This document shows positions 13,869-28,685 of a stretch of 64,000 nucleotides of DNA, piece after piece. The translations under genes were made by a program, and so were the position numbers. The stretch's first letter is position 1, and the number at the start of each line of letters is the position of its first letter. Under the pieces are notes generated by a model. That model was not told the DNA's origin. It searched no databases and saw only the letters and a program-made list of their open reading frames with translations. The stretch comes from Saprospiraceae bacterium (GTDB taxonomy: Bacteria; Bacteroidota; Bacteroidia; Chitinophagales; Saprospiraceae): assembly GCA_022448955.1 (NCBI GenBank), contig JAKVCU010000007.1, positions 1-64,000 on the forward strand, written 5' to 3'.

Positions 13869-14072
13869 GCTCAATCTTTTCCCACAAGGAGCTGAATAGT
13901 AAGCCCAAAAAATGGGTACAGCTTTCCTATCCTTAGCAATTCATTATTTTCAGTCTGACCATTTTATTATACATACAATTTTGCTTAGTTACTGGAGATG
14001 CCAGAATTAAGCTAATTTTTTGCGGTATTTCTTGACTTTTTTCTTCTTCATGCCCTATTTTTCAAATAAAAA

Positions 14073-14408
14073 ATGACAGCAGAAGAAAGAACTATACTGA
14101 AAAGTAAAATAGAAGCAACAATCATTCAAACAGAAGATGAAATACGTCAGTTAGAAAAAATGACTCAACCTATTAGCCCCGAAAATGCTATCGGCCGAGT
14201 CAGTAGAATGGATGCCATCAACAACAAAAGTGTCGCCGAAGCCTCCCTACGGTCTGCCAGCCGAAAGTTAAACAATCTGAAGTTAGCACTAAGCAAAATT
14301 GATAGTCCTGCCTTTGGGATTTGTACACGATGCAAAAAGCCCATTCCATCCGCTAGGCTGATGTTTATGCCTCAAAGTACACGTTGTGTACATTGTGCAG
14401 ATCGCTAA
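14073..14408 (+). CDS. TraR/DksA-family zinc-finger protein
   Basis: A 111-residue protein with an N-terminal coiled-coil hairpin (about residues 1-75, starting TAEERTILKSKIEATI) and a C-terminal four-Cys zinc finger: C84-x2-C87 and C105-x2-C108. This is the DksA/TraR fold, whose members bind the RNA polymerase secondary channel and change transcription at rRNA and stress promoters with ppGpp. It lacks the usual Asp-Asp pair at the coiled-coil tip as far as I can see (the tip is around EKMTQPISPENA), so activity may differ from DksA. Cytoplasmic, monocistronic. Confidence 0.88.
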   Translation: MTAEERTILKSKIEATIIQTEDEIRQLEKMTQPISPENAIGRVSRMDAINNKSVAEASLRSASRKLNNLKLALSKIDSPAFGICTRCKKPIPSARLMFMPQSTRCVHCADR

Positions 14409-14482
14409 ATAAAGCTCTGTCAGTTGGATGACATCAAAATATCGACCATTTGGTTTAAAAAATTGTAAAATCTTTGAGTTTA

Positions 14483-14515
14483 TTGTGCAACTATTCTGAA
14501 GGTATATTACCTTTG
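14483..14515 (+). promoter_or_regulatory. Candidate promoter of a small RNA
   Basis: TTG at 14483-14485, 22 bases, then TACCTTTG at 14508-14515, a full match to TAnnTTTG. A terminator lies about 250 bases downstream with no convincing ORF in between. Confidence 0.45.
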
Positions 14516-14521
14516 TTTCAA

Positions 14522-14768
14522 AATTGTGAACAGCTTGATTGTTAGAACATTAAGATTAAGCTTTCTAAATTTGCTGGAGTTCAAGTTTCCTTAACTCCAA
14601 TCAGCTTCTAAAAACTACATTATAAAAATATCGTTAAACAAAATTGTAAACTAAAAGTCTGTTTTTAGGTTACACTATTATACATTGATAATTCTACCTC
14701 TGAATATAAGATCGACTTTTAAGTTTCATACATTAGGGAGGGGAGCTTGCTTTAAGCTCCCTTTTTTT
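14522..14768 (+). ncRNA. Candidate structured small RNA ending at a terminator
   Basis: Between a promoter-like motif (14483-14515) and a strong terminator (14741-14768) lie about 245 bases without a good ORF. Two internal pairings are visible: TGGAGTT (14575-14581) with AACTCCA (14593-14599), and CTAAAAAC (14608-14615) with GTTTTTAG (14661-14668). The terminator stem is GGGAGCTT (14741-14748) with AAGCTCCC (14754-14761), then seven T. I do not recognise the family; 6S-like RNA or an unknown sRNA are possible. The DksA-type gene ends 100 bases upstream, so a long 3-prime UTR is the main alternative. Confidence 0.4.
14741..14768 (+). terminator. Rho-independent terminator
   Basis: 8-bp GC-rich stem (14741-14748/14754-14761), 5-base loop, then T7. 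It ends whatever transcript comes from upstream: the DksA-type gene or the candidate small RNA. Confidence 0.85.
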
Positions 14769-14884
14769 GTCTATAATTATTCTTGGAGATATTCAGAAAA
14801 AACTGACGATTACTTTACTTTTGATCTACATCTTTCCTTTGATGTAATTTGTTTTAATGTTAAATCAAAAAAATCTTCAAAAGC

Positions 14885-15361
14885 ATGAGAATCTTTCAAT
14901 TCCTAATAACCCTAATGATATTTGGTGTACTAAGTACTTGTGGTAATTCTGCAGCTGATCAAGCAGCCAAAGAACGCGAAGCTGAAAATGTTAAAGCGCA
15001 AGAACAAAAATGGGATCAGGTGATGTCTATTCACGATGAAGTAATGCCTTTAATACCAGATATTAATAAAGCCGTGAAGGTATTGAAAGAAAATATCACT
15101 GAAGACATAGCTGAAGAAAAGAAAGAGCAAATTATGTCAACTATAGGAAAGTTAGAGTCAGCAGATGAAGGAATGTTCAGCTGGATGGCTAATATTCGTC
15201 AAATCGAACCATTAAGAGATTCTATGAACCACCAAGAAATCATGCAATATCTCGAAAAAGAAATGGTAGCGGTTACAAAAGTAAAAGTAAATATTTTACT
15301 TGGCCTAGAAGAAGGCCAAGCCCTCATTACCAACCTAGTGCAAAAGGCCAAAGAAGACTAA
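14885..15361 (+). CDS. Putative lipoprotein, helical
   Basis: A 158-residue protein with an N-terminal export signal ending in LSTC-GN; Cys19 could be lipidated, although Thr at -1 is unusual for a lipobox. The mature part is almost entirely helical and highly charged, with the conserved-looking block WDQVMSIHDEVMPLIPDI and a second helix pair later (FSWMANIRQIEPLRDS). Proteins of this kind are common in Bacteroidota, often labelled 'viral A-type inclusion protein' without functional support. It lies 195 bases before the SCO gene, another predicted lipoprotein, on the same strand. Confidence 0.7.
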   Translation: MRIFQFLITLMIFGVLSTCGNSAADQAAKEREAENVKAQEQKWDQVMSIHDEVMPLIPDINKAVKVLKENITEDIAEEKKEQIMSTIGKLESADEGMFSWMANIRQIEPLRDSMNHQEIMQYLEKEMVAVTKVKVNILLGLEEGQALITNLVQKAKED

Positions 15362-15556
15362 GAGGGGCTGTTTAGGATTGATAAATTAGACTTAGCAATG
15401 GCTATCAGTATGCCAATAATATGCTTTTCTTTCGCTTAAGAAATGGCCCTGTATACCGATAGCTAGCGAATAATCAAATACTAGACAAACTATTGACTAT
15501 TTCGACTCGAACTACAAATTCCCTAACTAAACTATAGATTAAAATATATTAAGTTC

Positions 15557-16183
15557 ATGAGATATCTTTTTTTTCTATTTCTTCTCTCACTAATTGCTTG
15601 CCAAGAAAATCTTCCAGAAGAACCAACAGATCTTCCTATTTTAGGCAATCATGATATTCATCCGGATACCGGAGATACAACCCTTCACATCATTCCTAAT
15701 TTTGAATTCTATAACCAGGATAGTGTGCTCATAAATAATAATACGTTTGCTGAAAGAATATATGTGGCAGACTTCTTTTTTACATCCTGCCCAACCATTT
15801 GCCCTAAGGTGAAGAAAAATATGCTTCGCCTTTACGATAAGCATAAAAACAATCCAGAATTTGCATTGGTTTCTTATACGATCGATCCCAAAAGGGATAC
15901 CGTTGGCAAATTAAAGCAATATGCTACCAACCTAGATATCACTGAAAAGGATAAGTGGCATTTCCTTACTGGAGAAAAAGCAACCATCTATGATCTTGCC
16001 GAAGATTATATGAGTATCGCTGTAGAGGACGAGAATGTACCTGGTGGATTTGACCATAGTGGTTGGATTTTACTCATTGATGAAAATCGCCATATTCGCT
16101 CTTTCTGCGATGGTACAGACGCAGATGCTGTGACCAAATTCATGGATGATATAGATTGGCTACTAGCCAATAATGGGAAGTAA
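15557..16183 (+). CDS. SCO1/SenC-family copper chaperone lipoprotein
   Basis: Thioredoxin-fold copper protein that helps load copper into the CuA centre of cytochrome c oxidase or keeps its cysteines reduced. The 208 residues begin with a lipoprotein signal (lipobox LIAC, Cys15). The copper site is complete: C78-x3-C82 in FFFTSCPTICPKVKKNM, and the distal His in GGFDHSGWILLID. An inner-strand VSYTIDPKRDT is also typical of the family. Acts at the periplasmic face of a membrane. No cytochrome oxidase genes are in this window. The gene runs towards the convergent retron operon, whose last stop codon is 63 bases away. Confidence 0.93.
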   Translation: MRYLFFLFLLSLIACQENLPEEPTDLPILGNHDIHPDTGDTTLHIIPNFEFYNQDSVLINNNTFAERIYVADFFFTSCPTICPKVKKNMLRLYDKHKNNPEFALVSYTIDPKRDTVGKLKQYATNLDITEKDKWHFLTGEKATIYDLAEDYMSIAVEDENVPGGFDHSGWILLIDENRHIRSFCDGTDADAVTKFMDDIDWLLANNGK

Positions 16184-16246
16184 GATCAATATATTGGGTA
16201 ATCGTATAATAGAGAACTGTTATATGATTACCCATTCCACTATTCC

Positions 16247-17644
16247 CTAGTGTCTAATCCATGGATGCCTTAGCGCAACTTTTTTCGCCTGCTCTTCATT
16301 CACCATCTTGATAAATGCCCAATAGCCTTTCGCATAATTCTCTGCATTTTTGCCAATTCTTTGACTCATCACTTCCACTCCTTCTTTTTCATAATGGTGC
16401 AGAAAACTTCTAAATGCACGCATGTCCTTCCGGGAAATAGCAAGCTGTTCATTTACAACTACGCCTGTTACTGCTTGACGTTGATGTGGACGCATCACCT
16501 TCAACTTATCTGGATGTAACACAAAGGATTCATCTTCGATAATGTCTTTGGTATAATTCAAAACATGGCCCACTTTTGCTGCTGGGTCAGGATGAGAAAT
16601 GACCATATCATCCGCATAACGACTATAAAAAAAACCTAGCTTATTGCACAAACCTGTCATTCTTGCATCCAATCTTTTGCAGATAATATTTGTAATGGCA
16701 GCTGAAGTACAGGCGCCTTGCGGCAAATATCGCTCTCCTAAAGCGACATGATATTTTTTACCGTCCAAACTTGCTTCCATTCGAACTGAATCTGTACAAA
16801 GCAGTGCAAAGATACTCGCCACCCCTTCATTGTATCCAAAGCATTGAAATAAGCCTTTCACTCTCCTAAATTGAATGGAAGGGAAAAAATCTTTCAAGTC
16901 CATTTTAATAATGGTCTGATTATCTACATGGACTTTAGCATTGTCTACAATTGAGTGCTCTTTACGGAAAGCTTTTGCTGCTGGATGCAATGGGATCTTA
17001 TTCAATACCTGATCGAGTATCCATTCTTGCGCTTTACGCAAAAGCGGTTTTGACGAAGAAATCAAACGGATACCTCCACTCTTTTTGGGGATCTTGTACC
17101 GATCGTAGTGATCGATCTCTGATGCTTTTCTATGATAAGCCAACCAAGAAATTTGCCCTTCTGGAATTTCCATCGCTTTCGCTAAATCAGACACATCTTC
17201 TATTAATGGTAAATCTTGCTCTTCTAATTTTTGAGTTTCTGTCCCTTCAAATCTCAGTCCAGCAGATACCCCTTCTCCAAGGTAAAAAGGAGTTTTAAGG
17301 CGCTGCTGCTTTTGAGCAGCTTTTTTTTGTACTAATTCCTTTTGTTTTTGAACTCTTCGTTCTGCTCTTTCTTTGCGGACTCTTTCCATCCTTGCAAGTC
17401 GGATTTTCTTTAAGATCGTTTCTACGTCTGGTAATAAACGAAGTTCTTTGTCAATTTTTCGAAGCTCTTTTTGAATCGAGGCCTGTTCTTCCATTCCTCG
17501 TTTCATCACTTCTATTTCTTGGCGTGTTAGATCCAAAAATCCTAGTTGAATCATATCCTGCATAATGGCATATTGTCGGCCATATCTACGCCTATTTTCT
17601 TTCCATTCCTCTAAACTGATTCCTTTTTTGTTAGATGGCTTCAT
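16247..17644 (-). CDS. Retron-type reverse transcriptase with N-terminal extension
   Basis: RNA-directed DNA polymerase. Catalytic motifs are intact: RT motif A KMDLKDFFPSI (Asp249), LPQGACTS (307-314) and YADD (343-346). Two features specific to retron RTs are present: region X NAxxH (NAKVH, 235-239) and region Y VTG (392-394, in AVTGVVVN). The IPKKSGGIRLIS block (185-196) also matches. Typical retron RTs are about 310-400 residues; this one has 465, because an N-terminal Lys/Arg/Glu-rich, probably coiled-coil region (about 1-130) precedes the RT fold. Motifs of group II intron maturases and of DGR RTs are absent. It is the last gene of a minus-strand run, 30 bases after the WGR-like gene; candidate msr-msd RNAs lie at the head of that run (24883-25536). 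Expected role: make msDNA for an anti-phage system. Confidence 0.9.
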   Translation of the reverse strand: MKPSNKKGISLEEWKENRRRYGRQYAIMQDMIQLGFLDLTRQEIEVMKRGMEEQASIQKELRKIDKELRLLPDVETILKKIRLARMERVRKERAERRVQKQKELVQKKAAQKQQRLKTPFYLGEGVSAGLRFEGTETQKLEEQDLPLIEDVSDLAKAMEIPEGQISWLAYHRKASEIDHYDRYKIPKKSGGIRLISSSKPLLRKAQEWILDQVLNKIPLHPAAKAFRKEHSIVDNAKVHVDNQTIIKMDLKDFFPSIQFRRVKGLFQCFGYNEGVASIFALLCTDSVRMEASLDGKKYHVALGERYLPQGACTSAAITNIICKRLDARMTGLCNKLGFFYSRYADDMVISHPDPAAKVGHVLNYTKDIIEDESFVLHPDKLKVMRPHQRQAVTGVVVNEQLAISRKDMRAFRSFLHHYEKEGVEVMSQRIGKNAENYAKGYWAFIKMVNEEQAKKVALRHPWIRH

Positions 17645-17674
17645 TATCGTTACTTTTTTGGTGATAAAAAAGGC

Positions 17675-18628
17675 TTAGTCTGCTAAAATGAGTTGTGCTA
17701 ATGGAAGCAACTCAGACTTTAAATCCAATTCAAATTTGGATAAACTCATCACCTCTCCATCTTCGAAAACAAAATCTACGCGGTACAAACAGTTATTATC
17801 TACTAATAAGGACTTCGTTTTAAAATCTGCTTCATAAGATTTCAAATATTGCTTATCCCATACCCCATTTTCGTTGTAAATTTTGCTTTCCACCTGCTTC
17901 TCTCCTAATAAAAAATAATCGTCAAATCCAGCATTCATAGCCTCCCAAGTCGCAGACCTTAATAAACCATTCACACCATAAGCATGCTCAAAGTAGAGTT
18001 CATAACCTGCATTCTTCATCACTTTCATCCTAGCTTCTTGTACACTACCATCCTTTTGAACCTTTACTGGACAGTACTCCGTTTTGTGGATACCAAAGTA
18101 GGATAAAGTAACTTCTTTAACCGCTTTCTTTAAATAAGTAAAGTATTTTAATCTCAAATCCAGCGATAAATTTCTTACATCTTCTTTCTCCTCAAATCCG
18201 TCTTCCAATTTTTTATCAAACAAGTGTCTTGCATTTAATATCGCATGACGATTCGAATCCATTGTGATGCGAGATAACTCACCTAAAGTTCCTAAGCGAC
18301 CATGAAAAATGATCTGATCTTGGCCATGAACGACCATTTCCCAGAAACGACCGTCTTTTTCTAAATATCCTTGGAATGTATCTTCTGTATCCTCTTCAAA
18401 TGCATAAATGCGAAAAGTGCCATTAAATTCAAATACCCAATTCTCCTCATCTCCTAAAATATCCATAAAGTGTGACACCACTGATTGTGTAGCAAAATAA
18501 CCTTGCTTTCTCAATTCTTTCTTTACGTCTAGCGTACTCGTTTTACCATTTAAAATCATCAAGGCTTCTGCCATACCTAATACGATTTCCTTATCGATTG
18601 CTCTTAATTGCTTAGATGAAATAGACAT
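17675..18628 (-). CDS. WGR-like domain protein of the retron operon
   Basis: A 317-residue cytoplasmic protein. Residues 1-75 form a helical, winged-helix-like N-terminal part (KELRKQGYFATQSVVSHFMDIL, then a strand pair). Residues about 85-145 match a WGR domain: FWEMVVHGQDQIIFHGRLGTLGE (FWEM at 95, HGRLGTLGE at 109-117) with the later A-x-x-x-x-F-x-x-K-x-x-x-G(F/Y) helix (LFDKKLEDGF). WGR domains bind nucleic-acid ends or breaks. The C-terminal 170 residues are not recognised. It sits between the PARP gene (100 bases upstream) and the RT gene (30 bases downstream). A role in recognising DNA ends or msDNA is inferred from domain and context only. Confidence 0.7.
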   Translation of the reverse strand: MSISSKQLRAIDKEIVLGMAEALMILNGKTSTLDVKKELRKQGYFATQSVVSHFMDILGDEENWVFEFNGTFRIYAFEEDTEDTFQGYLEKDGRFWEMVVHGQDQIIFHGRLGTLGELSRITMDSNRHAILNARHLFDKKLEDGFEEKEDVRNLSLDLRLKYFTYLKKAVKEVTLSYFGIHKTEYCPVKVQKDGSVQEARMKVMKNAGYELYFEHAYGVNGLLRSATWEAMNAGFDDYFLLGEKQVESKIYNENGVWDKQYLKSYEADFKTKSLLVDNNCLYRVDFVFEDGEVMSLSKFELDLKSELLPLAQLILAD

Positions 18629-18728
18629 GATTTGTTGTTTTTTCTGGTTTAACCTAAAGATTTGATAGGAGCATGAACAGCTCCATGGAATGCTTAATTA
18701 ATTTTAGTTCTCTATATTTCGGGTCTGT

Positions 18729-19970
18729 TTATCTTACTTCTACTAAGTATCGAATAGTACATTGAGCGGAGTTGTAAACGATGTACTCATTATTAATCAA
18801 GTCCGCACCGCCTTTAGCATAAAGAGAGTCATAAGTCCCTCTCGCTCTTAAATTATCTTCCGATAAATCGTAGCACCAAGGCTGATGCTTCTTAATTTTC
18901 AACTGCTTACCTACATGCACATCAAACAATGCTAAATAGCCACGGTCTTGACTTCCTCTTGTCCAATAAGAGCCACGCAAAGATGTGTAATTCAATGATT
19001 TCTTGAATTTATCGGCAAAGTATAAACCGTAACCAAACATCTTACCATTAATTACAGCATTGGCTGGCCTAAGTACCAATCCTGTTTTTAGGATCGATAA
19101 CCAATTTTCATTTCTACTACCGTGCCAGAAAAGTGCCGTCTTTTTGTAGCGAGCATCTTTGTAAAAACCATCAAAATATTGTTGGGTAGCAATATTTTTC
19201 ACAGCAAATGCACGATAGAAACTAGAAGCATCATCTTTCATTAGCTTTTTGATCTTCTTGATCACAGCAGGATCATTTTCCTCTTCCACCTCTAACCCAA
19301 GATCTCTTAATAAATTTACCTCCTGCGAATCAAACTGATCTTCGTCCTTATCTTTATTCAATTCCACCTGGCTTCTCATGACATCCAAAGTGGCTTGCTC
19401 CTCTGCCAACTTTTCTTCCACTTCTTGCAAACCTTCTGCATCTTTTGGTATAAGCTGTAGCAGATGTCCTCGCACATTTCCCATACGACGAGGAATAACT
19501 TGGTACAAATCCAACAGACGCTTATTAAAATGATCAACATCTAAATTTAATTGAGTAAGGTTTACTAATTGGTCTAAGATATCTTGCGCTTCTCCAAGTT
19601 GCTGTTTGCTTACCTGATCTGCACGAACACTATAATTCATTTCAATCGACTTGCTAGCAAAGCTCATCAAATCTGCAATCAAAGCACCTACTGCAGCATT
19701 CTCAATACCAGTGATGATGGTTTCTTTCTTCTTTGTCGAGAAAAGGTGAGTTTGGTCTTTGTAACCTTTGCGCAGTTTTTCGCGCAATTTACTCTCCCAT
19801 TTTTTGATTGGATAACAGGATACAGAAGCAGTAGCTCCAACACGACCGTATTTTACCATGAATGTACCATCTGGGTTTTCTTCCATGTCATAGTACTTAT
19901 TGTTGTTACTAGCCGTCACCATGATTAATTTGGCTACTCTGAGTTGTGTGGATTCGTTAACAACTGGCAT
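18729..19970 (-). CDS. WGR-PARP: poly/mono-ADP-ribosyltransferase
   Basis: ADP-ribosyltransferase that uses NAD+ to modify proteins or nucleic acid. The 413 residues have the core layout of eukaryotic PARP1/2/3: a WGR domain (about 24-77, YYDMEENPDGTFMVKYGRVG), the all-helical regulatory domain (about 85-175, ALIADLMSFASKSIEMN onwards), a Glu-rich linker, and the ART catalytic domain (about 250-413). The H-Y-E triad is intact: His283 in FWHGSR, Tyr317 in GYGLYFADKFKKSLNY, and Glu395 in NNEYIVYNSAQ, so polymer-forming activity is plausible. It lies between the SWIM gene (terminator and promoter in the 252-base gap) and the second WGR-like gene. In PARP1 the WGR domain couples DNA-break binding to catalysis; here the trigger might be phage or msDNA ends. 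Confidence 0.92.
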   Translation of the reverse strand: MPVVNESTQLRVAKLIMVTASNNNKYYDMEENPDGTFMVKYGRVGATASVSCYPIKKWESKLREKLRKGYKDQTHLFSTKKKETIITGIENAAVGALIADLMSFASKSIEMNYSVRADQVSKQQLGEAQDILDQLVNLTQLNLDVDHFNKRLLDLYQVIPRRMGNVRGHLLQLIPKDAEGLQEVEEKLAEEQATLDVMRSQVELNKDKDEDQFDSQEVNLLRDLGLEVEEENDPAVIKKIKKLMKDDASSFYRAFAVKNIATQQYFDGFYKDARYKKTALFWHGSRNENWLSILKTGLVLRPANAVINGKMFGYGLYFADKFKKSLNYTSLRGSYWTRGSQDRGYLALFDVHVGKQLKIKKHQPWCYDLSEDNLRARGTYDSLYAKGGADLINNEYIVYNSAQCTIRYLVEVR

Positions 19971-20049
19971 GATTAAGACGTTTTTTATTTTATCATTAAT
20001 TTGATGTCAACAATTGTAATAACTCCTATTTCCCGCATTGATTATATAA

Positions 20050-20080
20050 CAAAAATAGTGAAATTTGACTAAAAAGTAAA
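20050..20080 (-). promoter_or_regulatory. Candidate promoter for PARP-WGR-RT
   Basis: On the minus strand TTTA (20080-20077) is followed after 19 bases by TATTTTTG (20057-20050), a match to the TAnnTTTG -7 element. It lies just downstream of the terminator at 20142-20171 and 80 bases before the PARP start codon. Confidence 0.5.
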
Positions 20081-20141
20081 TTTTATGATTACATATTTTA
20101 TCCTAAAGATAAATTTTAACACTTTTGTCATCAAATTAATT

Positions 20142-20171
20142 AAAAAAGCCATGCATCGTATGATACATGGC
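20142..20171 (-). terminator. Intra-operon terminator after the SWIM gene
   Basis: On the minus strand GCCATGTATC pairs with GATGCATGGC (10 bp with one U-G pair, ATAC loop; 20171-20148) and is followed by T6 (20147-20142). It lies 51 bases after the SWIM stop codon, separating HEAT-SWIM from PARP-WGR-RT. Confidence 0.75.
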
Positions 20172-20222
20172 TGCCAGCGTGTCAAATTAACGCGTTCGTA
20201 TAAATAGGACTATGCAGACCAC

Positions 20223-21845
20223 TTAAATACTCATCAAAGAAGCTGCTATATGCGCACAAGGCCCTTTACGCAACTTATTGTGTTTGAAGAATCCACAGGT
20301 ACAAGATGCACGTTTGATACGGCCATCTGAATCCTGTAAAATAATTGTACGAAATACATTTTTCCCCTCTACCTCAAATTCATAGTGCTTCAACTGATTT
20401 TCGCTTTTATCGATGAGTTTTTTGACTTTATTATTGGCAATTAGCTCTTTTGCGTATTGATGTTGGTCATCTTTCTGTTCTAATCGAACACCTACAGGGA
20501 ATAAATCTCTCCAGCGGTACATTCCTTTATTAGGATCATACATCGCCTTTCCTTCTTTACATAATTGTTGTAAAGCTGCTCCTGCTGTGGCATCATCGGT
20601 TTCTAAGGCTTTCGCCAGATCTTTTGTTTTTCCAGCTAGTTTAGCTTTTAACCATTTTTCTGTTTGATCAATTACGCTTTGATCTTTAACCATTTGACCA
20701 GCGAGCAAATCAAAACTTGATTTGCGTGCCCAGTCATTGCTCGTCCAACCAGAAAGCCCTAAATCTAATTGATGACCATCCAATTGCACCGACCAAAATG
20801 AAGGCATGCCCGTACCCAGCAGCTTTACATTTACCTGGTCAATTACAGGCAAAGCATCTGTTAGGATAAGTAAACGTCTTCTTCCCCATATTCTGATTTC
20901 TCCTTCAACATCTCCATCGAAGACATGCTCCTGTTCTTCTACTTCTATGTCCCAAGGATCTATCATGATAGTTGGCCTTTCACCTTTCTTCAAAACAAAG
21001 CGTAAAGAACGTGGTCCTTGTTTTGCTTTCTTTTGTTCGATATAGCCTAATATTTCACGTAAAGTGGCCGCACTTAAACGCACTTCCTGTCCATTCAAAG
21101 CCGCTGCAGATTGTACTTGCAAAAAGCCTTTCACCCAACTCTCAGGCAAATCAATCTTTTTCTCCACTTTCGCACCCGAAGATGTAGATAATTTCACCTG
21201 ATGCTGTGCTACTTTTAACCAAGCAGGGCGATAAGAACGAACACGGTATATTTCATCTGCTAATCCTTGGCTGAAGTCAATATTTGTCGTTCCATAATTT
21301 ACATCACCGAATGTTTCTAGGTTTTCAGAAGGAACACTCACTCTAGCATAAGTAGATTCATCTATAGAAAAGGCTTCGAAAATAACGGAATCTGGATGGA
21401 CACTAATAACTGGATCGAGCAAATAAGCTTTCTCCTTTTCATGCTTCCATATGTAAGAGCGATAGTTTCGCTGAGCATTCCACATCGCAGTTCGATAAGG
21501 CTGGTTTTCTTTCACTAACTGGCGATGCTTTTCACTAAGCTCTTTTTTCTGCTCCAGCAACTTCTTTTGAATGGGAGCAATATTCGCTAAATAGGTTGGT
21601 AGTTCTTTATAATATTCGTTTTGTACCCATTGTTGATATCGACTATGATCTTGTTCTTTATTTGCGAGATCACTAATCACTACGCGTCTTAATGCCAGCA
21701 TCAATTTTGCATAAGAAAGACTATGCTTAATCATAGCATGTAAGGACACTGATTTTCTGGACAATTCTGCCGAAAAATCAAAATGTGTACCTTTTGAATT
21801 GCTTTTAGCAATACTGGCTTGTGTATAAGATTGAGTAATCTGCAT
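20223..21845 (-). CDS. SWIM zinc-finger protein
   Basis: A 540-residue cytoplasmic protein ending in a SWIM zinc finger: C515-x-C517-x12-C530-x-H532, in a strand-rich context (FRTIILQDSDGRIKRASCTC). SWIM domains bind DNA or protein. The N-terminal 160 residues are helical with a coiled-coil-like stretch (KKLLEQKKELSEKHRQLVKENQ); the middle holds a beta-rich domain with EGEIRIWGRRRLLIL, seen in bacterial SWIM proteins that sit near MoxR/VWA or WGR genes. A helical linker with ALETDDATAGAALQQLCKEG resembles a winged-helix turn. It follows the HEAT gene by 142 bases and is followed by a terminator. Exact activity is unknown; a nucleic-acid-sensing or scaffold role in the retron locus is inferred. 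Confidence 0.8.
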   Translation of the reverse strand: MQITQSYTQASIAKSNSKGTHFDFSAELSRKSVSLHAMIKHSLSYAKLMLALRRVVISDLANKEQDHSRYQQWVQNEYYKELPTYLANIAPIQKKLLEQKKELSEKHRQLVKENQPYRTAMWNAQRNYRSYIWKHEKEKAYLLDPVISVHPDSVIFEAFSIDESTYARVSVPSENLETFGDVNYGTTNIDFSQGLADEIYRVRSYRPAWLKVAQHQVKLSTSSGAKVEKKIDLPESWVKGFLQVQSAAALNGQEVRLSAATLREILGYIEQKKAKQGPRSLRFVLKKGERPTIMIDPWDIEVEEQEHVFDGDVEGEIRIWGRRRLLILTDALPVIDQVNVKLLGTGMPSFWSVQLDGHQLDLGLSGWTSNDWARKSSFDLLAGQMVKDQSVIDQTEKWLKAKLAGKTKDLAKALETDDATAGAALQQLCKEGKAMYDPNKGMYRWRDLFPVGVRLEQKDDQHQYAKELIANNKVKKLIDKSENQLKHYEFEVEGKNVFRTIILQDSDGRIKRASCTCGFFKHNKLRKGPCAHIAASLMSI

Positions 21846-21960
21846 GGCAAAATAATTTTAAAGGAAGAAAAAAGAAAGGGGTTTCCCCCCTCCATAGGAA
21901 GCATTCGTCTTTGGTTTTTCGCTTTCGTTTTGTTAAGCGATTATTTTCAGTCTAAGGCAA

Positions 21961-21993
21961 GCATAAAGTGAAATCGTGATTTCTACTTTATGC
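21961..21993. repeat. Near-perfect 33-bp palindrome across the HEAT stop codon
   Basis: GCATAAAGT (21961-21969) pairs with ACTTTATGC (21985-21993), and inside it GAAATC (21970-21975) faces GATTTC (21978-21983). The right arm includes the last codon and stop of the HEAT gene. No T-run follows on the minus strand, so it is more likely an mRNA-end stabiliser or processing hairpin than a standard terminator. Confidence 0.65.
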
Positions 21994-24807
21994 TAATTCA
22001 AAGCCTGCGATTTCGGCTCCAGCCAGAGAAGCTTTTGCCAACTCCAACAATGCCCATTCCGCATCATTTTTGTTATTTCCTCTGGCCAGTTCAAGCAAAA
22101 TTTCTATAGGAACATTTGAATCTCCTTGTTTAATCAATTCTTTAGCTTTCCTAGCTCTATTCCGGCCATTTAATACATTCTTTTGAAGGTAAGCCTGGCC
22201 TTTTGTGTCTTTTAATGTCGATTCTTTTTGACTTAAGACAAATGCTTGAATTTGTGGATCACTATGCTCTGTTAAACATTCTAAAACATAGGATATATTT
22301 AGTTTTTTGGGTGGTTTTTCAATCATTTCTAATGCCCACATGCGCACCTTTTGGCTTGGGCTATCTATCATACTTAAAATTCCTTCTAAATAAGCTGTTT
22401 CTTTACTCTCTTCAATCATCTGCTTACCCAATTGCTCTACATCAGGAAGGCTTGACTCTAGCAACTGTACAATAAATGGCATACTAGGCTCAATGGTCTT
22501 ACAAATGGCCTTTGCTATATTTCTTACTCCCTCCAATTTGTGGATAAGCGCTTTAAAAAGTAGTTGTTGATCTTCTACTAATAAAGATTGGTGTTTGTGA
22601 GTCCATTTCACTATGATATCTGCGAGACTAGGCAGATTTACATCTAGAACTTGTGGATTTGGAAGTGCTAAAATTTGTTCTTTAAAACGCCCCTCTTCCA
22701 TTAATCGACTCAATAATATATCTTGGCCTTCTCCATTTAGCTTTCGCAAAATACCACTCCAAAGTTCATCTTGAGAAATTAGCTGCATAACCTCTTGCAT
22801 AGCGGCACCCCACTGCTCCCATTCTTGCTCGTCGAGTTGAGTAAGCAAATCCAAAAGCATATCTGAAGTAAAAAATGGCTGAAGCACTTCTAATTTATTT
22901 AGGATGGCTTGACGCTGATGCACCTCGCCTTTCTTCAAAAAGTCTGTTAATTTCTGGAGCAACAAGGCTTCCCACTTTGGCGATTCAAATAAAGGTAAAG
23001 TACGTTCAAAACCACTTGGATGCAATTGGATAAGAATGTGTTCAACAAGCAAACTACAAAGATCCTTATCCTGTTTTTGAGTAGTCAAAAATCTAATCAC
23101 TACATCTCTCACCCATTGATTTTTGTCCGTCAATCGGCCCAATATCTGATTAAATATATAACGATTGAAACGAACACGTGGGAAGATATCATTTACGATT
23201 TCATCTCTATCGGCAAAGTCTTTAAGAAAGGCATAACCCCACCAGAAGTGATTATTTACACTATTAATTAAGGCTTTCCTTGCAATAGCACACACTTTGG
23301 GATGGCCTTCTTCCATCACTTTGATACAAAAATCATATTGATAAGTCAATTTATAATGCCAATTGGGTAGTTTTTCAATCATTAGGTCAATACCATAAGA
23401 TGATTGAAATAAATGACGAACAGGTAGATAATTCCAACCACAATAGGGATACTTTGAATAAAGTATAGTAGTCATTTCGTGATGAAGATGCTTATACTCA
23501 TCCATCATTAAATACCAAGCAAAATTAGCAACGACAAAATGGTTGGATTCTGCTAATTGATACAATTGCTTCTGTGTCAAAGCTCCTCTATCGCTATGTT
23601 TTCCAATATTATTATAAATTGCCAATTGGAAATTTTTATCTTGCTTGGCGGTACTAACCAGCCATGTTTCCCAGTTCGCAATACCCACCTTTCTAGATAG
23701 ATGCATGAATAGGCGATGGAGTAGTGGATGATCTAAAGCAACAATAGTAGATAAACCATCTTGAAAATCTTGTACCGGAATTTCATCTTTCCATTCAAAC
23801 AATAAAGCAATAGCTGTTTCTGTTCTGGAAGTTTCGGGGCGTTGAACGCAAATTTTTAAAAGTTGGCCTAAAACTTTGCCAATTGGAAATGATGATTTGT
23901 TATCAGAGAATGCGCGTGAACCTCCCAGAAAGTTTTTCACTTTTTCAAAAATACTTTCATTTGGTTTTTCATTTTTTGACTGGGAAGTTTTATTTAAATG
24001 ATAAAAAGATAATATTTCTTCTTGCTCCTTTCCTTTTGCCATATAAATGAGGAAAGCAGCCATTTCATTCGATAATTGAGCTCCCACTTTTAATTTGGCG
24101 AAAGCCTGACGAAAAGCAATCACCTGCAACCATGGAGAGTTACTATTCAGTGCCTTAACTATTTGTTTTAGAGAAAAAGTAGGAATAGATAATCCATTAC
24201 GATGAAGTACCTTTACGGCAAAATCTAAGACTGTTGTACTGATAAAATGATCGTCAAATAATTCGTTTACCATTTGAGGTTGATCATTCCAAAGCGTCGC
24301 AAAACGCTCCTCCGTTCTATTCACTGCAGCCAAATCCATCTGCTGGATTACCTTTCCTCTTCCATGTCGGCTATGTTCAAATCTTTTTGAATCTCCTTTC
24401 AAAATCATCCAGGAAATCCATTGATAACTAAAGTCAAGTTGTTCATCTTGCTTTGTGCCATTTGGTAGACGAGTACGCAAAAACTGAATAGCCAATTTGC
24501 GAAAGCGTGCTGCGTCATCTTGAGCTATATTTCTTAAAAAGCGCATCACTCTTCGCTTGATGTAAGCGATTGTTTGATTCGACGGCTTCTTATTGTTATT
24601 TCGCTTATTAAATGGCATTTGATCAAAGCGTAGCATTAGTGTCAAGAGTAATTCATCATCATTTTTTTGCTCCACCATTTTGTAGAGGCGCTTTATCTTT
24701 GCCCAGTCAGCATTAGCTAAAGGGGCAGTTTGAATAAAATCAAGCAAAGATGTTCTGCCCTGAGTCGTCTGCAAAGACTTACTCAAGTGAATACTCAAAT
24801 GATCCAT
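21988..24807 (-). CDS. Large HEAT/ARM-type repeat protein
   Basis: A 939-residue cytoplasmic protein, almost wholly helical, made of degenerate helical-hairpin repeats, for example LTQKQLYQLAESNHFVVANF, LTDKNQWVRDVVIRFL, IDSPSQKVRMWALEMIE and LTEHSDPQIQAFVLSQ. These look like HEAT/ARM units forming a superhelical scaffold, most regular in the C-terminal half. No catalytic motif was found. It is the first protein gene of the minus-strand run and lies directly downstream of the tandem structured RNAs, so it may be co-transcribed with them. Likely role: large scaffold or sensor binding other partners of the system, inferred from repeats and position. The ATG at 24807 is the first in frame; the DNA upstream turns into an ATGA/TGAT-rich stretch. 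Confidence 0.8.
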   Translation of the reverse strand: MDHLSIHLSKSLQTTQGRTSLLDFIQTAPLANADWAKIKRLYKMVEQKNDDELLLTLMLRFDQMPFNKRNNNKKPSNQTIAYIKRRVMRFLRNIAQDDAARFRKLAIQFLRTRLPNGTKQDEQLDFSYQWISWMILKGDSKRFEHSRHGRGKVIQQMDLAAVNRTEERFATLWNDQPQMVNELFDDHFISTTVLDFAVKVLHRNGLSIPTFSLKQIVKALNSNSPWLQVIAFRQAFAKLKVGAQLSNEMAAFLIYMAKGKEQEEILSFYHLNKTSQSKNEKPNESIFEKVKNFLGGSRAFSDNKSSFPIGKVLGQLLKICVQRPETSRTETAIALLFEWKDEIPVQDFQDGLSTIVALDHPLLHRLFMHLSRKVGIANWETWLVSTAKQDKNFQLAIYNNIGKHSDRGALTQKQLYQLAESNHFVVANFAWYLMMDEYKHLHHEMTTILYSKYPYCGWNYLPVRHLFQSSYGIDLMIEKLPNWHYKLTYQYDFCIKVMEEGHPKVCAIARKALINSVNNHFWWGYAFLKDFADRDEIVNDIFPRVRFNRYIFNQILGRLTDKNQWVRDVVIRFLTTQKQDKDLCSLLVEHILIQLHPSGFERTLPLFESPKWEALLLQKLTDFLKKGEVHQRQAILNKLEVLQPFFTSDMLLDLLTQLDEQEWEQWGAAMQEVMQLISQDELWSGILRKLNGEGQDILLSRLMEEGRFKEQILALPNPQVLDVNLPSLADIIVKWTHKHQSLLVEDQQLLFKALIHKLEGVRNIAKAICKTIEPSMPFIVQLLESSLPDVEQLGKQMIEESKETAYLEGILSMIDSPSQKVRMWALEMIEKPPKKLNISYVLECLTEHSDPQIQAFVLSQKESTLKDTKGQAYLQKNVLNGRNRARKAKELIKQGDSNVPIEILLELARGNNKNDAEWALLELAKASLAGAEIAGFELA

Positions 24808-24814
24808 GATAAGT

Positions 24815-24875
24815 GAATTATGAATGATCTCTTATCAATGATAAATGATCAATTATGAGTGATGAATGATAATAC
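24815..24875. repeat. Simple ATGA/TGAT-rich repeat
   Basis: About 60 bases of irregular ATGA/TGAT units (for example ATGATAAATGATCA) between the HEAT start codon and the first structured RNA. No gene; this could be a spacer or a slippage tract. Confidence 0.5.
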
Positions 24876-24882
24876 GTCTGTT

Positions 24883-25125
24883 CTCTTTGCAATTTGCTAC
24901 AAGCATGCTGAGGACCGGTGGCAGGTACTGTAGGCGTCGGAGGGTACCTATACCTTTTATAAAGGTGTAAGTTGGTGAGTACGCTTACTGAGCGCCAAAT
25001 GTACCGATAAAAGGTATAGGTACAAAGGAGACGCTGAATGGCCCTGCCATCTGGTGTCTAGTGGGAAGTGATGAATTGACCATGGCGAAACGCCATAGCT
25101 TTTTACTTTAGTATTCCGCAAAAAA
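24883..25125 (-). ncRNA. Candidate retron msr-msd RNA, copy A (proximal)
   Basis: Structured element with the same block order as copy B. Read on the minus strand: an 8-bp hairpin with UUU loop (25098-25080), then GGGCCATTCAGCGTCT (25044-25029), then a 17-bp perfect stem (25023-25007 with 24960-24944) around a 46-base loop with its own small hairpin, then CGCCTACAGTACCTG (24936-24922). The hairpin's C-U-A/U-G-G end needs a U-G pair that exists only on the minus strand. The outer ends pair weakly (25125-25118 with 24890-24883, 8 bp with two G-U). A long msd stem, a UUU-loop msr hairpin and a position upstream of a retron RT operon fit an msr-msd. The weak ends may mean decay or a different boundary. 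Confidence 0.65.
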
Positions 25126-25133
25126 TTACTTCC

Positions 25134-25210
25134 CGATTTCTATAAGGTCTTTTCTTAGCACCGCCTGCTTTAAGTGTACCGCTTGGCTGTACTAAGAAAA
25201 GACGAAATCG
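25134..25210. repeat. Long inverted repeat between the two RNA copies
   Basis: CGATTTC (25134-25140) and GTCTTTTCTTAG (25147-25158) pair exactly with CTAAGAAAAGAC (25192-25203) and GAAATCG (25204-25210): 19 bp with one 6-base bulge and a 33-base loop. It shares no block with copies A or B. It could be a processing hairpin, a terminator-like spacer or part of another element. A 65-codon minus-strand frame crossing it looks fortuitous. Confidence 0.7.
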
Positions 25211-25286
25211 AAAAGTTAGTTTTTCTGCTTTACTCATTCGCCTAAACGATTGTAGTAAAAAAATGCTAACAAAGCTGCTGAAAGAA

Positions 25287-25536
25287 AAAAGATTTTGCAA
25301 CGCTCTTGCTCAGGATTGGCTACAGGTACTGTAGGCGGCTGATACTATAGTATATTGAATGGAAGGCCATTTTGTGGCCAACGGCTACGCAGCGCAAAAT
25401 GAACTGGAATAAATATACTATAGTTAAAAGACGCTGAATGGCCCTTTAGTCCAATGAACGATGGGAAGTTGTAATGACACCATGGCGAAACGCCATAGCT
25501 TTCTGTAAAAACAGAAAATTGCTTACAAAATCTTTT
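25287..25536 (-). ncRNA. Candidate retron msr-msd RNA, copy B (distal)
   Basis: Read on the minus strand: AAAAGATTTTGTAA (25536-25523) pairs with TTGCAAAATCTTTT (25300-25287), 14 bp with one U-G pair, as a1/a2 in retrons; it is directly followed by the AGC context expected for the branching guanosine (G25522). Next come a 7-bp hairpin with UUUU loop (25517-25500), the 8-bp UUU-loop hairpin (25498-25480), a single-stranded stretch with CTTCCCA, the block GGGCCATTCAGCGTCT, a 13-bp AT-rich stem (25424-25412 with 25356-25344) around a 55-base loop, and CGCCTACAGTACCTG. Block positions are offset from copy A by exactly 400 bp. The stem sequence differs from copy A yet pairs fully, which is covariation. 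I call it msr-msd by analogy; no transcript is shown. Confidence 0.75.
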
Positions 25537-25611
25537 CCAAAAGAGAGATCAAACTATCAAGTATCAAGTAAAACTTTTTTTACCTTATCGAGTCTAAATA
25601 CACAGTAGCTG

Positions 25612-25648
25612 AAGTAAATAATAAAGTGATTAGCCTTATTATTTACTT
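25612..25648. repeat. AT-rich 13-bp inverted repeat upstream of the RNA operon
   Basis: AAGTAAATAATAA (25612-25624) and its exact complement (25636-25648) flank an 11-base centre (AGTGATTAGCC). It lies between the divergent RNA operon and the Nudix gene, where an operator would sit, and may be a repressor site or a terminator-like hairpin. Confidence 0.6.
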
Positions 25649-25856
25649 TATGTCAAGTGAAATTAAAAAATAACTTTTTTGATTACAAATAATCTTATTT
25701 AAGATATTTTTAAATCCCTTTGTCATTAATTACATTACAAATTTACAGTCTTTTTTGATACAATGCAAGAAAAAAGGTAAAAAAATTTCACTTTTTTGAT
25801 TTTAATATAATCAAATTATTTACAAATCAACTTTCCGGGTTAAAAATCAATTACTT

Positions 25857-26387
25857 ATGGAGCATTGGAAAAAAATAAAAGAAGAACTTGTGTATGATGG
25901 ATGGCGAAAAGTAATCAGACGGTACTTCCTTTTACCCAATGGAAAAGAAGAGGCCTTTGATATCATTGGTAGTAACAACTATGTCATTATAGCTGCCTTT
26001 ACAGAAAATCATGATGCCATACTAGTCCAACAATATAGACCTGGAGCAGAAGAAGTTTTAGTTTCCTTTCCAGAGGGAGGTATAGAAGAAGCAGAAAGTT
26101 TGGCGGAAGCCGCAAGAAGAGAGCTCTTAGAAGAGACTGGATACTCTGCGGGAGAAGTTCAATTACTAAAATCGTTTCGCAGAGCTTATAGTAATCAACA
26201 ATATCATACCTTTATTGCCACTCATTGTAAAAAAATAGGCGATCAACAACTAGATGATTCAGAATTTATTGAAGTTTTCACGAAACCACTAACCGAATTT
26301 CGTTCCTTGATTAAGGATGCTCATGACCATAGCTTCCACAATGTAGGTTCGGCCTATTTGGCATTGGATTTTTTGGATAAATTATAA
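25857..26387 (+). CDS. Nudix hydrolase, ADP-ribose pyrophosphatase-like
   Basis: A 176-residue Nudix enzyme. The Nudix box is complete: G-x5-E-x7-REL-x-EE-x-G in GGIEEAESLAEAARRELLEETGY (about 80-102), binding Mg2+ through the REUxEE glutamates. The strand before it, ILVQQYRPGAEEVLVSFPEGG, is the pattern of ADP-ribose/NDP-sugar pyrophosphatases, which split ADP-ribose into AMP and ribose-5-phosphate. Substrate is assigned by family resemblance only. It is divergent from the RNA/PARP operon across about 320 bases of AT-rich DNA and starts a plus-strand operon with the dipeptidase 19 bases downstream. Next to a PARP gene, clearing free ADP-ribose is an attractive but unproven role. Confidence 0.9.
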   Translation: MEHWKKIKEELVYDGWRKVIRRYFLLPNGKEEAFDIIGSNNYVIIAAFTENHDAILVQQYRPGAEEVLVSFPEGGIEEAESLAEAARRELLEETGYSAGEVQLLKSFRRAYSNQQYHTFIATHCKKIGDQQLDDSEFIEVFTKPLTEFRSLIKDAHDHSFHNVGSAYLALDFLDKL

Positions 26388-26406
26388 TTATTAGACGAAC
26401 AATTTT

Positions 26407-27384
26407 ATGAAATTACTACCAATTACAGATCTCCATTGTGATCTTCTACTTTACTTGTCACATTTTGAAGGGGCTCACATTGAAGGAACCGAAGATATTG
26501 GCGTTACTTTACCTTTTTTAAAAAAAGGAAATGTCAAACATCAAATCACAGCTGTATTTACCCCTACAAAAAAAGGAAGTGTAGCCATGGCTAACAAGCA
26601 ATTTGATTGCTTTAAAACCCTTGTCGAATCTTCCGATTTTCACAACCATACCAGTCCAGAGGCTAATGCAAAAGATACCATAGGAATTACACTAGCCATT
26701 GAAAATGCCAGTGGTATTTGCAATGAATCAGAACCCATCCAAAACGCTTTTCAACGGCTCGATAAAATTCGGGATACTTACCAACGTATATTCTATATTA
26801 GCTTTACGCATCATCCAGAAAATCGCTTTGGAGGAGGAAATTATGCCCCTGGCATAGGCCTAAAAGAAGATGGTGAACGCATGCTCGACTACATGGATGG
26901 CCAGCAAATTGCTATCGACCTATCACATACAAGCGATGCATTGGCCATAGATATCCTTAATTATATAGATCAAAATAACTTAAAAATTCCAGTCATTGCC
27001 AGTCACTCTAACTTTAGAATAATTTGGGATCACCCCAGAAACCTTCCTGAAGAATTGGTACAAGAAGTCATTCGAAGAGAAGGCCTGATCGGAATGAACT
27101 TCCTTAGAGCTTTCATTCATCCAACTGATCCAGGTGTACTCTTGGAGCATATCCAAATGGGATTAGAAAAAGCAGAAGATCAAGTGGCTTTTGGCGCAGA
27201 TTTCTTTTATCGAAAGGGTATCCTAGATCCTGAAAGACAACCCCTTTTCTTTGAAGAGCACGAGGATGCTGGAAAATATCCAAATATTATTCAGCAACTC
27301 ACGGAAAAAGGTATGGATCATATTCAAATAGAGAAATTAGCTTATCAAAATGTTTTAAATTTTATGGCAAAAAATTGGGGATAA
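26407..27384 (+). CDS. Membrane dipeptidase family (M19) peptidase
   Basis: Zinc amidohydrolase-fold dipeptidase, 325 residues, related to renal dipeptidase. Metal ligands are visible: His10-x-Asp12 in TDLHCDLL, the bridging Glu in LAIENASG, His in AIDLSHTSD and His in VIASHSNFR, with a later Asp in AFGADFF. There is no signal peptide, so the protein is cytoplasmic, as often in bacterial M19 enzymes acting on L-Xaa-D-Xaa or ordinary dipeptides. It starts 19 bases after the Nudix stop and is probably co-transcribed with it; no functional link between the two is known. Confidence 0.93.
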   Translation: MKLLPITDLHCDLLLYLSHFEGAHIEGTEDIGVTLPFLKKGNVKHQITAVFTPTKKGSVAMANKQFDCFKTLVESSDFHNHTSPEANAKDTIGITLAIENASGICNESEPIQNAFQRLDKIRDTYQRIFYISFTHHPENRFGGGNYAPGIGLKEDGERMLDYMDGQQIAIDLSHTSDALAIDILNYIDQNNLKIPVIASHSNFRIIWDHPRNLPEELVQEVIRREGLIGMNFLRAFIHPTDPGVLLEHIQMGLEKAEDQVAFGADFFYRKGILDPERQPLFFEEHEDAGKYPNIIQQLTEKGMDHIQIEKLAYQNVLNFMAKNWG

Positions 27385-27503
27385 TCTCTTTTACATCTGG
27401 AACCATTCTATACCGTGCTTTTGTTCCAATCAAAACCATTCAATCTATTTTTGTTATTTTGTTTAGGGATTTTTAAAATCCTTGCAGCTATAAAACTAAA
27501 TTC

Positions 27504-28685
27504 ATGGAAATACTCTTAGGCATGCTCTATGCCATTTCGGCAATTTTCTTGGTGCTCTGCATTCGCCCAATCACCACCTTTGTCCATGAAATGGGACATG
27601 CTATTCCTGCGCTTTTATTCACAGATGGAGAAGTGACCATTTATGTCGGTTCTTATGGAGATATTAATCAAAGTACCTTGATTGACTATGGTCGCTTAAA
27701 AATATATTTCCGTCTCAATCTATTTCATTGGGACCTTGGACTATGTTCTCACCATGCCTATATTTCACTCACTCAGCACCTAATTATCGTCCTTGGAGGA
27801 CCTTTTCTTTCTTTGATCTTTGCCACCCTACTATTTTTACAAATGATTGGTGGAACTTACTCAGACGGCGCTATTGCCATCATGAGTTTATTTATCATTT
27901 CTAGTACTTGGGACTTTGCCATTAATATGATTCCTCGTTCAGAGCCATTGGTCCTTCATGATCAGTCCTTGGCATACAATGATGGTGCTCAGATCAAGCG
28001 ATTATTGTCAATGGGATCTTCTGCAGCTGACTATGCGCAAACATTTAATACCTTTAAGCAAACAGGGCAGCCTATTGATTATGAAAGGCTCCTAAAAATT
28101 ATTGAGCAAAAGAATTATCCGCCTATTATGGTGGATGAAACTTCCCATTTATTGGTCGCTAAGGCTAAATACCAAGATGCCTTAGATTTATTCCAAGAAT
28201 ACCACAATCGAAAAAATTTAAAAACCCACCAATATCTTCTCTTGGGCCAAATCTATCAAGGACTAGGCAATGCCCATGAAGCCATTAAGGCTTATGAGCA
28301 GTATTGGTTCTATCATCATAACGATCCTAATACGCTCAATAAAAAAGCAGCTCTATTAATGGATATTGGCCAGTACGAGGTAGCTGCCGAAGACATCCGC
28401 ATTAGCCTTTCTATGCAACCCGAAGGTAATGTTAGTGCATTACTCAATAGGGTACGTTATTATTTAAATCAACATGCCCTTGAAGAGGCCAAGCAAGATT
28501 TAGAGCAAATAGAAAAGCTAGTGCCAGAAAATGCCAATCTATTCTATTATTGGGGGCGTTACCATGAAGAAAAATGGAATTATCAGGCGGCCATCCACTA
28601 TTTAGAAAAAGCAAAAGCGGCAGGTTCTGAACAACATGCGCTTGATTATAAAATTGAAGAACTCCAACAAATGTTAGAGCGATAA
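27504..28685 (+). CDS. M50-type membrane metalloprotease-like protein with TPR domain
   Basis: A 393-residue membrane protein. The zinc motif is HEMGH (H28-E29-x2-H32) in the second helix, as in M50 site-2 proteases, with further hydrophobic segments up to about residue 155 (LIIVLGGPFLSLIFATLLFL, then IMSLFIISSTWDFAINMIP). The expected third ligand motif (NxxPxxxxD-type) could be FAINMIPRSEPL. From about residue 195 to the end lie four to five TPR units (YLLLGQIYQGLGNAHEAIKAY; ANLFYYWGRYHEEKWNYQAA). A protease core fused to a cytoplasmic TPR platform is unusual. It is followed at 3 bases by the CapA-like gene, so the two form an operon. Substrate unknown. Confidence 0.8.
   Translation: MEILLGMLYAISAIFLVLCIRPITTFVHEMGHAIPALLFTDGEVTIYVGSYGDINQSTLIDYGRLKIYFRLNLFHWDLGLCSHHAYISLTQHLIIVLGGPFLSLIFATLLFLQMIGGTYSDGAIAIMSLFIISSTWDFAINMIPRSEPLVLHDQSLAYNDGAQIKRLLSMGSSAADYAQTFNTFKQTGQPIDYERLLKIIEQKNYPPIMVDETSHLLVAKAKYQDALDLFQEYHNRKNLKTHQYLLLGQIYQGLGNAHEAIKAYEQYWFYHHNDPNTLNKKAALLMDIGQYEVAAEDIRISLSMQPEGNVSALLNRVRYYLNQHALEEAKQDLEQIEKLVPENANLFYYWGRYHEEKWNYQAAIHYLEKAKAAGSEQHALDYKIEELQQMLER

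Follow-up and report, generated by a model that had tools for sequence, protein, structure and literature searches.

Retrons are usually regarded as systems with one reverse transcriptase (RT), one non-coding RNA (ncRNA) and one multicopy single-stranded DNA (msDNA). Retron-Eco1 (Ec86), for instance, has a single ncRNA and partner proteins other than those of the locus described below. In PADLOC, type XIII retrons are represented by the protein models RT_XIII, SWIM_XIII and HEAT-ARM_XIII. Duplicated msr-msd sequences are already known: according to the available excerpts of its description, Retron-Nex1 (Ne160) of Nannocystis exedens has several duplicated msr and msd repeats, with no RT within a kilobase, that possibly reflect repeated insertion (PMC6868368). 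The present work deals with two tandem msr-msd units, B and A, on the minus strand (24873-25541) of a 64-kb window, i.e., the whole stretch of DNA that was analysed (positions 1 to 64,000 of contig JAKVCU010000007.1 of a Saprospiraceae bacterium), which is part of a 6.4 Mb genome (G000:C198). Both units lie directly upstream of a type XIII operon and are best explained as tandem msr-msd genes serving one type XIII RT, that is, as a short case of an array of two to six units.

The window RT, its SWIM protein and, in part, its HEAT protein match the type XIII models. Nevertheless, the locus differs from what these protein models describe in that (i) it has two ncRNAs (relatives have up to six) with exchanged msd stems; and (ii) genes for a WGR-PARP and a WGR protein are present between those for SWIM and RT. 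Duplicated msr-msd sequences are shared with Ne160, which was compared by its partially available description only; the window units head an operon, and their stems are exchanged. For Retron-Mxa1 (Mx162) and Retron-Sau1 (Sa163), the comparison covered the priming context: in the excerpts available, the priming G of both is found in an AGC context, CAGC (PMC6868368). No operon-linked array with exchanged stems was found in the partially available literature, including PMC12548924, PMC8867640 and PMC6868368, and an earlier description may exist; as far as these excerpts go, such an array is apparently new.

Each unit contains an msr hairpin followed by an msd with a basal stem and a long stem, the arrangement expected of a retron. 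Unit A (24873-25136) adjoins the HEAT gene, about 70 nucleotides (nt) upstream of its start, and unit B (25281-25541) is located farther upstream. A preliminary description of this DNA, made from the letters alone, had reported blocks shared in the same order by two elements, and repeat comparison finds all three: 24893-24941/25294-25342 (73% identity, spacing 401), 25029-25045/25429-25445 (100%, spacing 400) and 25062-25102/25462-25502 (83%, spacing 400). The distance of exactly 400 base pairs (bp) that it gave is right for the last two blocks and one short for the first. Its long stems of 17 bp (A) and 13 bp (B), different in sequence and perfectly paired, are as reported: in unit A, the 5' arm at 25007-25023 pairs with the 3' arm at 24944-24960 (inverted repeat I3, 100%, 17/17) and, in unit B, 25412-25424 pairs with 25344-25356 (inverted repeat I8, 100%, 13/13). 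The conserved 5' side of the basal msd stem is identical in A (25029-25045) and B (25429-25445) and is kept in relatives. Sequence and fold agree on an msr hairpin with a UUU loop at 25080-25098 (A) and 25480-25498 (B). Compared with dinucleotide shuffles, the minus-strand folds have z scores of -5.4 (A) and -5.8 (B), and for neither unit did any of 200 shuffles reach so low a value.

Retrons have complementary ends (a1/a2) of about 8-30 bases. In unit B, a1 (25523-25536) and a2 (25287-25300) form a 14-nt inverted repeat (I7, 93%); neither this closing repeat nor the wider array pattern appeared in the preliminary description. In unit A, the corresponding arms (a1, 25117-25124; a2, 24884-24891) form a weak stem of eight pairs including G-U, which is seen in the centroid fold only and is absent from the minimum-energy fold. 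The candidate priming G of unit B, at 25522, lies in AAGC, aligned to the TAGC of relatives. TAGC is given as the commonest retron priming context in the available excerpts of a review (PMC6868368). Among 16 aligned units, TAGC is present in 14, including those of loci L107 and L108; the other contexts are the AAGC of window unit B and the GCGG of window unit A.

Two covariance models were built, R1 from units A and B alone and R2 from the 16 units, so that A and B are training members of both. With R1 each scores 297 bits; R2 places A at 24878-25144 (E-value (E) 1.1e-37) and B at 25279-25549 (E 2.7e-48). A search with a model of the two copies, as the preliminary description had proposed, was carried out with R1 on 41 sources, and the same element was found upstream of the HEAT gene in L093, L080 and L081 (E 2.9e-23 to 4.3e-14). 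In seven genomes reached via the loci, R1 detects clusters in those of L003 and L004: G960 has six units, five of them at 1.2e-10 or better and the sixth at 0.07 (1e-39 with R2), and G961 has four. In the genome of L005 (G959), whose type XIII operon has no unit in cis, R1 finds one unit in trans, away from the operon. This unit, a complete msr-msd, lies at L109:8262-8530 (G959:C46:100260-100517), with dut on one side and a gene for an acyl-CoA dehydrogenase on the other, both named by reading translations. Because of the fold z scores and the R1 matches in L093, L080 and L081, the element shared by A and B is, as judged from sequence, not due to chance. Conservation next to related RTs, the absence of which was to count against the preliminary description, is seen with R1 and R2.

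Covariation was assessed on an alignment of the 16 units, from seven loci, with the variable long stem left out. Two-sided changes occur in 27 of 38 pairs; shuffles give 15.3, and the six slid controls give 7 to 15. This covariation supports the msr-msd reading. Furthermore, 83.4% of the cells are paired, vs. 74.4% when shuffled and at most 57.5% in slid versions. For the a1/a2 helix, these figures are 79% of cells paired and two-sided changes at 14 of 17 pairs.

Multiplicity extends beyond the window. R2 was run on 32 genomes with type XIII RTs or relatives of the window RT: it gave matches at E 0.1 or better in 21 and clusters of two or more in six, namely G000 (2), G960 (6), G961 (4), G806 (4), G802 (3) and G965 (2). 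Training units came partly from the first three of these genomes and from none of the last three. The scores are weak for G802 (1e-7, 6e-5, 0.009) and G965 (0.001 each), and their units are clear in the sequence. Among 396 genomes of the order, R2 matches at 0.001 in eight, six of which have two or more clustered; G1034 adds a new cluster of two units, and G715 and G789 repeat the coordinates of G961 and G960, respectively. A stem scan of 29 loci found four units each in L082 and L083, three in L084, two in L006, one in each of 19 loci and none in six (L076 and the distant L011, L012, L013, L014 and L016); the unit of L076 sits on another contig, L158. Two more units were recognised by reading in L159. 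The cultured Hazenella coriacea is among the array carriers. The preliminary description regarded two ncRNAs for one RT as unusual, which holds for retrons in general and fails for several type XIII relatives, which carry two to six.

All unit counts come from covariance models, stem scans and reading. A strict mechanical unit finder was set aside: it returned wrong-strand units and units without msr context, and it undercounted because one G-U pair was allowed in the hairpin. From the stem scans, four inverted repeats without msr context, and stems without msr context in several loci, were dropped. In L082, L083 and L159, which belong to another subgroup, the units are placed directly before the RT instead of before the HEAT gene. 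The contigs of clusters L107 and L155 stop short of any RT, and their link to the system is the adjacent HEAT gene. Genome G806 has two type XIII loci, L155 (G806:C343) and L083 (G806:C322), with a four-unit array each; the RT of L155 is not on the same contig. On the RT tree, nine rows are labelled array, 23 are labelled single (including L005, whose unit is in trans) and four are ungrouped; the array label needs five changes and, therefore, arrays have been gained or lost repeatedly. Array organisation, multiplicity and operon linkage are established in these sequenced loci.

What distinguishes the units of one array from each other is mainly the middle of the msd stem. In 40 within-cluster pairs (30 units, nine clusters; unit 5 of L107 and the two L159 units left out), mean identity is 0.80 over the 95 nt before the stem, 0.82 over the 50 nt after it and 0.64 in the loop; the stem arms are 0.53 and 0.52 identical, vs. 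0.51 for shuffled arms, and in 37 of the 40 pairs arm identity lies within shuffled values (P at least 0.05). Most pairs are more extreme than that of the window, in which the flanks are 0.74 and 0.70 identical, the loop 0.58 and the arms 0.59 (P 0.29). In each of the 30 units, whose stems were found by pairing, 90% or more of the stem positions are paired. The clearest instance is Hazenella coriacea, with two units 375 nt apart: differences are found at 18 of 50 positions in the stem and at four of the 250 others, where identity is 98% (150 before the stem, the 21-nt loop and 79 after; Fisher p 2e-12). Since both stems are paired at 25/25, the 18 differences amount to nine compensated pairs. 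Two loci of a single genus, L082 and L083, have one identical stem in common and another that is 0.79 alike, in swapped order, and their other stems differ. In the loci compared, the unit frame (a1/a2, msr hairpin, basal msd stem and apical loop) is conserved, and a middle stem of 13-35 nt is exchanged and still paired.

A reading that we hold to be moderately probable is that one type XIII RT makes several msDNAs from an ncRNA array, each with a different duplex bait; both the production of msDNA, which in retrons has a 2'-5' branch, and the bait role are putative. From each intact unit, the one RT would produce a separate msDNA, and the cell would then hold several msDNAs with a common protein-binding frame and different duplex stems. 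The common frame would bind the RT and the partner proteins, with the HEAT, SWIM and WGR-PARP proteins forming the sensing and effector part. Each stem would act as bait for a phage protein, or a phage-altered host protein, that acts on DNA; once the bait was bound, cut or modified, the complex would be released, and the freed WGR-PARP protein might consume NAD+ or modify targets, leading to abortive infection. With several baits, more kinds of trigger would be covered and escape would be more difficult. It is quite unlikely that, in addition, the array is a diversifying repertoire, in which a process that is active or under strong selection exchanges the stems, rewriting the two arms together, and in which bait sets differ between strains; such a repertoire would be reminiscent of CRISPR spacers, but the bait would be a protein-binding duplex and not a guide. 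The exchange of the stem within a kept frame suggests that the stem is the part under selection. In any case, the arrays contain naturally matched pairs of units, the Hazenella pair foremost, with which to ask what an msDNA stem recognises. If the proposal is true, there are RTs that naturally serve several templates, which could be of use in multiplexed DNA production.

Several observations weigh against the bait-array proposal: (i) 23 of the 32 labelled RT loci are single and, hence, the array is not required; (ii) unit A may be inactive or itself decaying, because it has GCGG at the aligned priming site and a short a1/a2 stem, and unit 5 of L107 is degenerate; (iii) three of the 40 pairs (the only pair in L156, the only one in L006 and one of the L083 pairs) keep stem similarity; (iv) six single-unit relatives (L074, L075, L077, L078, L079 and L088) keep most of a 27-nt stem, with 45 of their 50 pairwise stem mismatches at positions 12-22, so that wholesale exchange of stems is not universal; (v) an exact search of viral contigs with five stems or stem parts (21-25 nt; stem B not searched) gave no match for any, and thus no bait target can be named, a negative of little weight; and (vi) the words that the stems share were chosen post hoc, as the top 5-mers. 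The excess of these words is large: in the 41 of 52 stems that were left when 11 near-duplicates had been dropped, TACTA occurs in 19, ACTAT in 15 and GGTAC in 14, vs. 8.5, 5.1 and 5.4 in dinucleotide shuffles, with 0 of 400 shuffles as high for any of them. The stems share words and are, therefore, not random; they appear to be recognised by something, rather than drifting freely.

The shared words bear directly on a rather unlikely alternative, in which the array is real, several units are active and stem divergence is insulation. If ncRNAs or msDNAs expressed together had one and the same stem, they would cross-pair or recombine; selection would therefore keep the stems of an array different, and the stems would have no bait function. 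Chance similarity of stems in 37 of 40 pairs speaks for insulation, as do the six single-unit relatives, which keep most of their stem. Nevertheless, stems across loci have words in common beyond dinucleotide composition, the stem centre varies between single-unit relatives too, and the Hazenella flanks, 98% identical over 250 positions, would still permit recombination. We also consider it improbable, to a similar degree, that only one unit per locus works and the rest are tandem duplicates, decaying or in transit. Window unit A, without TAGC and with a weak a1/a2, and the degenerate unit 5 of L107 would suit such decay; so would the single unit in trans in G959 and the precedent of the Ne160 repeats, as far as the excerpts describe them (PMC6868368). 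Against decay stand the 14 of 16 aligned units that keep TAGC, those of L107 and L108 included, the pairing and two-sided changes of the a1/a2 helix, and stem pairing at 90% or more in 30 of 30 units (a set found by pairing, with L107 unit 5 left out).

Far less probable still is that the elements are structured RNAs, such as a leader or an attenuator, that regulate the operon and are not templates for reverse transcription. All that speaks for regulation is that the units precede the first gene and share its strand; they have retron anatomy (a TAGC-type site, a1/a2 and a UUU hairpin) beside a retron RT, they stand directly before the RT in L082, L083 and L159, and one unit is in trans. Moreover, an Rfam search of 14000-28000 gave no convincing match: all six matches are below gathering scores and none is at the units.

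As for the origin of the stems, the exact search of viral contigs with five stems or stem parts, a negative of little weight, gave no match that would point to stems derived from phages. When up to one mismatch is allowed, stem A has no further copy in its own genome apart from its two arms. The window and Bacteroidota loci contain the stem words at observed/expected ratios of 0.95 (GGTAC), 0.97 (TACTA) and 0.98 (ACTAT), and the idea that the hosts avoid these words was rejected. The shared words suggested the palindrome GGTACTATAGTACC. It has at least 120 matching stretches, vs. 114 for a control palindrome, so that an excess cannot be claimed, and the stems were not accepted as phage operators on this count. 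A second near copy within 300 nt (80 loci each) is found at 12 of 82 GGTACTATAGTACC sites and at five of 80 control sites, while GGTACTATAGTACC lies near control-palindrome sites in one of 80; sites outside long open reading frames (ORFs) number 21 of 82 for GGTACTATAGTACC and seven of 80 for the control. In two viral contigs (L167:6372-6428 and L233:630-665), tandem copies of GGTACTATAGTACC have an operator-like arrangement and resemble the enriched stem words. The link between GGTACTATAGTACC and phage operators is a lead only, because the motif was picked after the stems had been seen and a single control was used.

The genes of the operon are all on the minus strand and follow each other from 24807 down to 16247 in the order HEAT/ARM, SWIM, WGR-PARP, WGR and RT. 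The HEAT/ARM-repeat protein (939 amino acids (aa); 21988-24807) matches PADLOC WGR_XIII (6e-28) and HEAT-ARM_XIII (2e-25) over part of its length, and its Pfam HEAT_2 match is below the Pfam cut-off. The SWIM protein of type XIII retrons (540 aa; 20223-21845) matches PADLOC SWIM_XIII (4e-166) and Pfam SWIM; both partners typical of type XIII retrons, SWIM and HEAT/ARM, are consequently present, with the HEAT match covering part of the protein. The WGR-PARP protein (413 aa; 18729-19970) matches Pfam PARP (4e-25) and Pfam WGR. Its PARP part aligns with the catalytic domain of PARP1 (PARP1 chains, 1e-16) at WHGS and YFAD, and a weak second alignment piece, of 6 bits only, covers NEYIVY; these three motifs are presumably the carriers of the H-Y-E triad. 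It is followed by the WGR protein (317 aa; 17675-18628; Pfam WGR 1e-5) and by the type XIII RT (465 aa; 16247-17644), which matches RT_XIII at 5e-154, vs. 1e-86 for the next best PADLOC model. All 14 solved sequences matched by the RT are retron RTs, and the closest is that of Ec86 (E 3.5e-35 over residues 136-418). The RT has NAKVH, YADD and VTG, in agreement with the retron RT motifs NAxxH, YxDD and VTG as defined in the excerpts available (PMC6868368). By homology, the window operon is a type XIII retron, with a putative anti-phage role. The RT_XIII and SWIM_XIII matches, the RT motifs, the covariation and the conservation beside related RTs together bear out the preliminary assignment of the elements as msr-msd upstream of a retron RT operon.

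A further candidate array, in L021 (Cloacimonadota), was rejected as near-identical generic repeats without msr-msd anatomy; the two copies, at L021:7095-7380, each have AGC and a hairpin, are 160 nt apart and lie near a distant RT. Matches to a Bacteroidota-type promoter consensus were not used as evidence: the window region has three (0.56 in shuffles), of which two overlap and one is inside the msd of unit A, L107 has three (2.6 in shuffles) and L006 none. Finally, an imperfect 29-nt hairpin (79% complementary) is present between units B and A (25137-25213), and short degenerate direct repeats of ATGAT type are found between the HEAT start and unit A (24797-24869).
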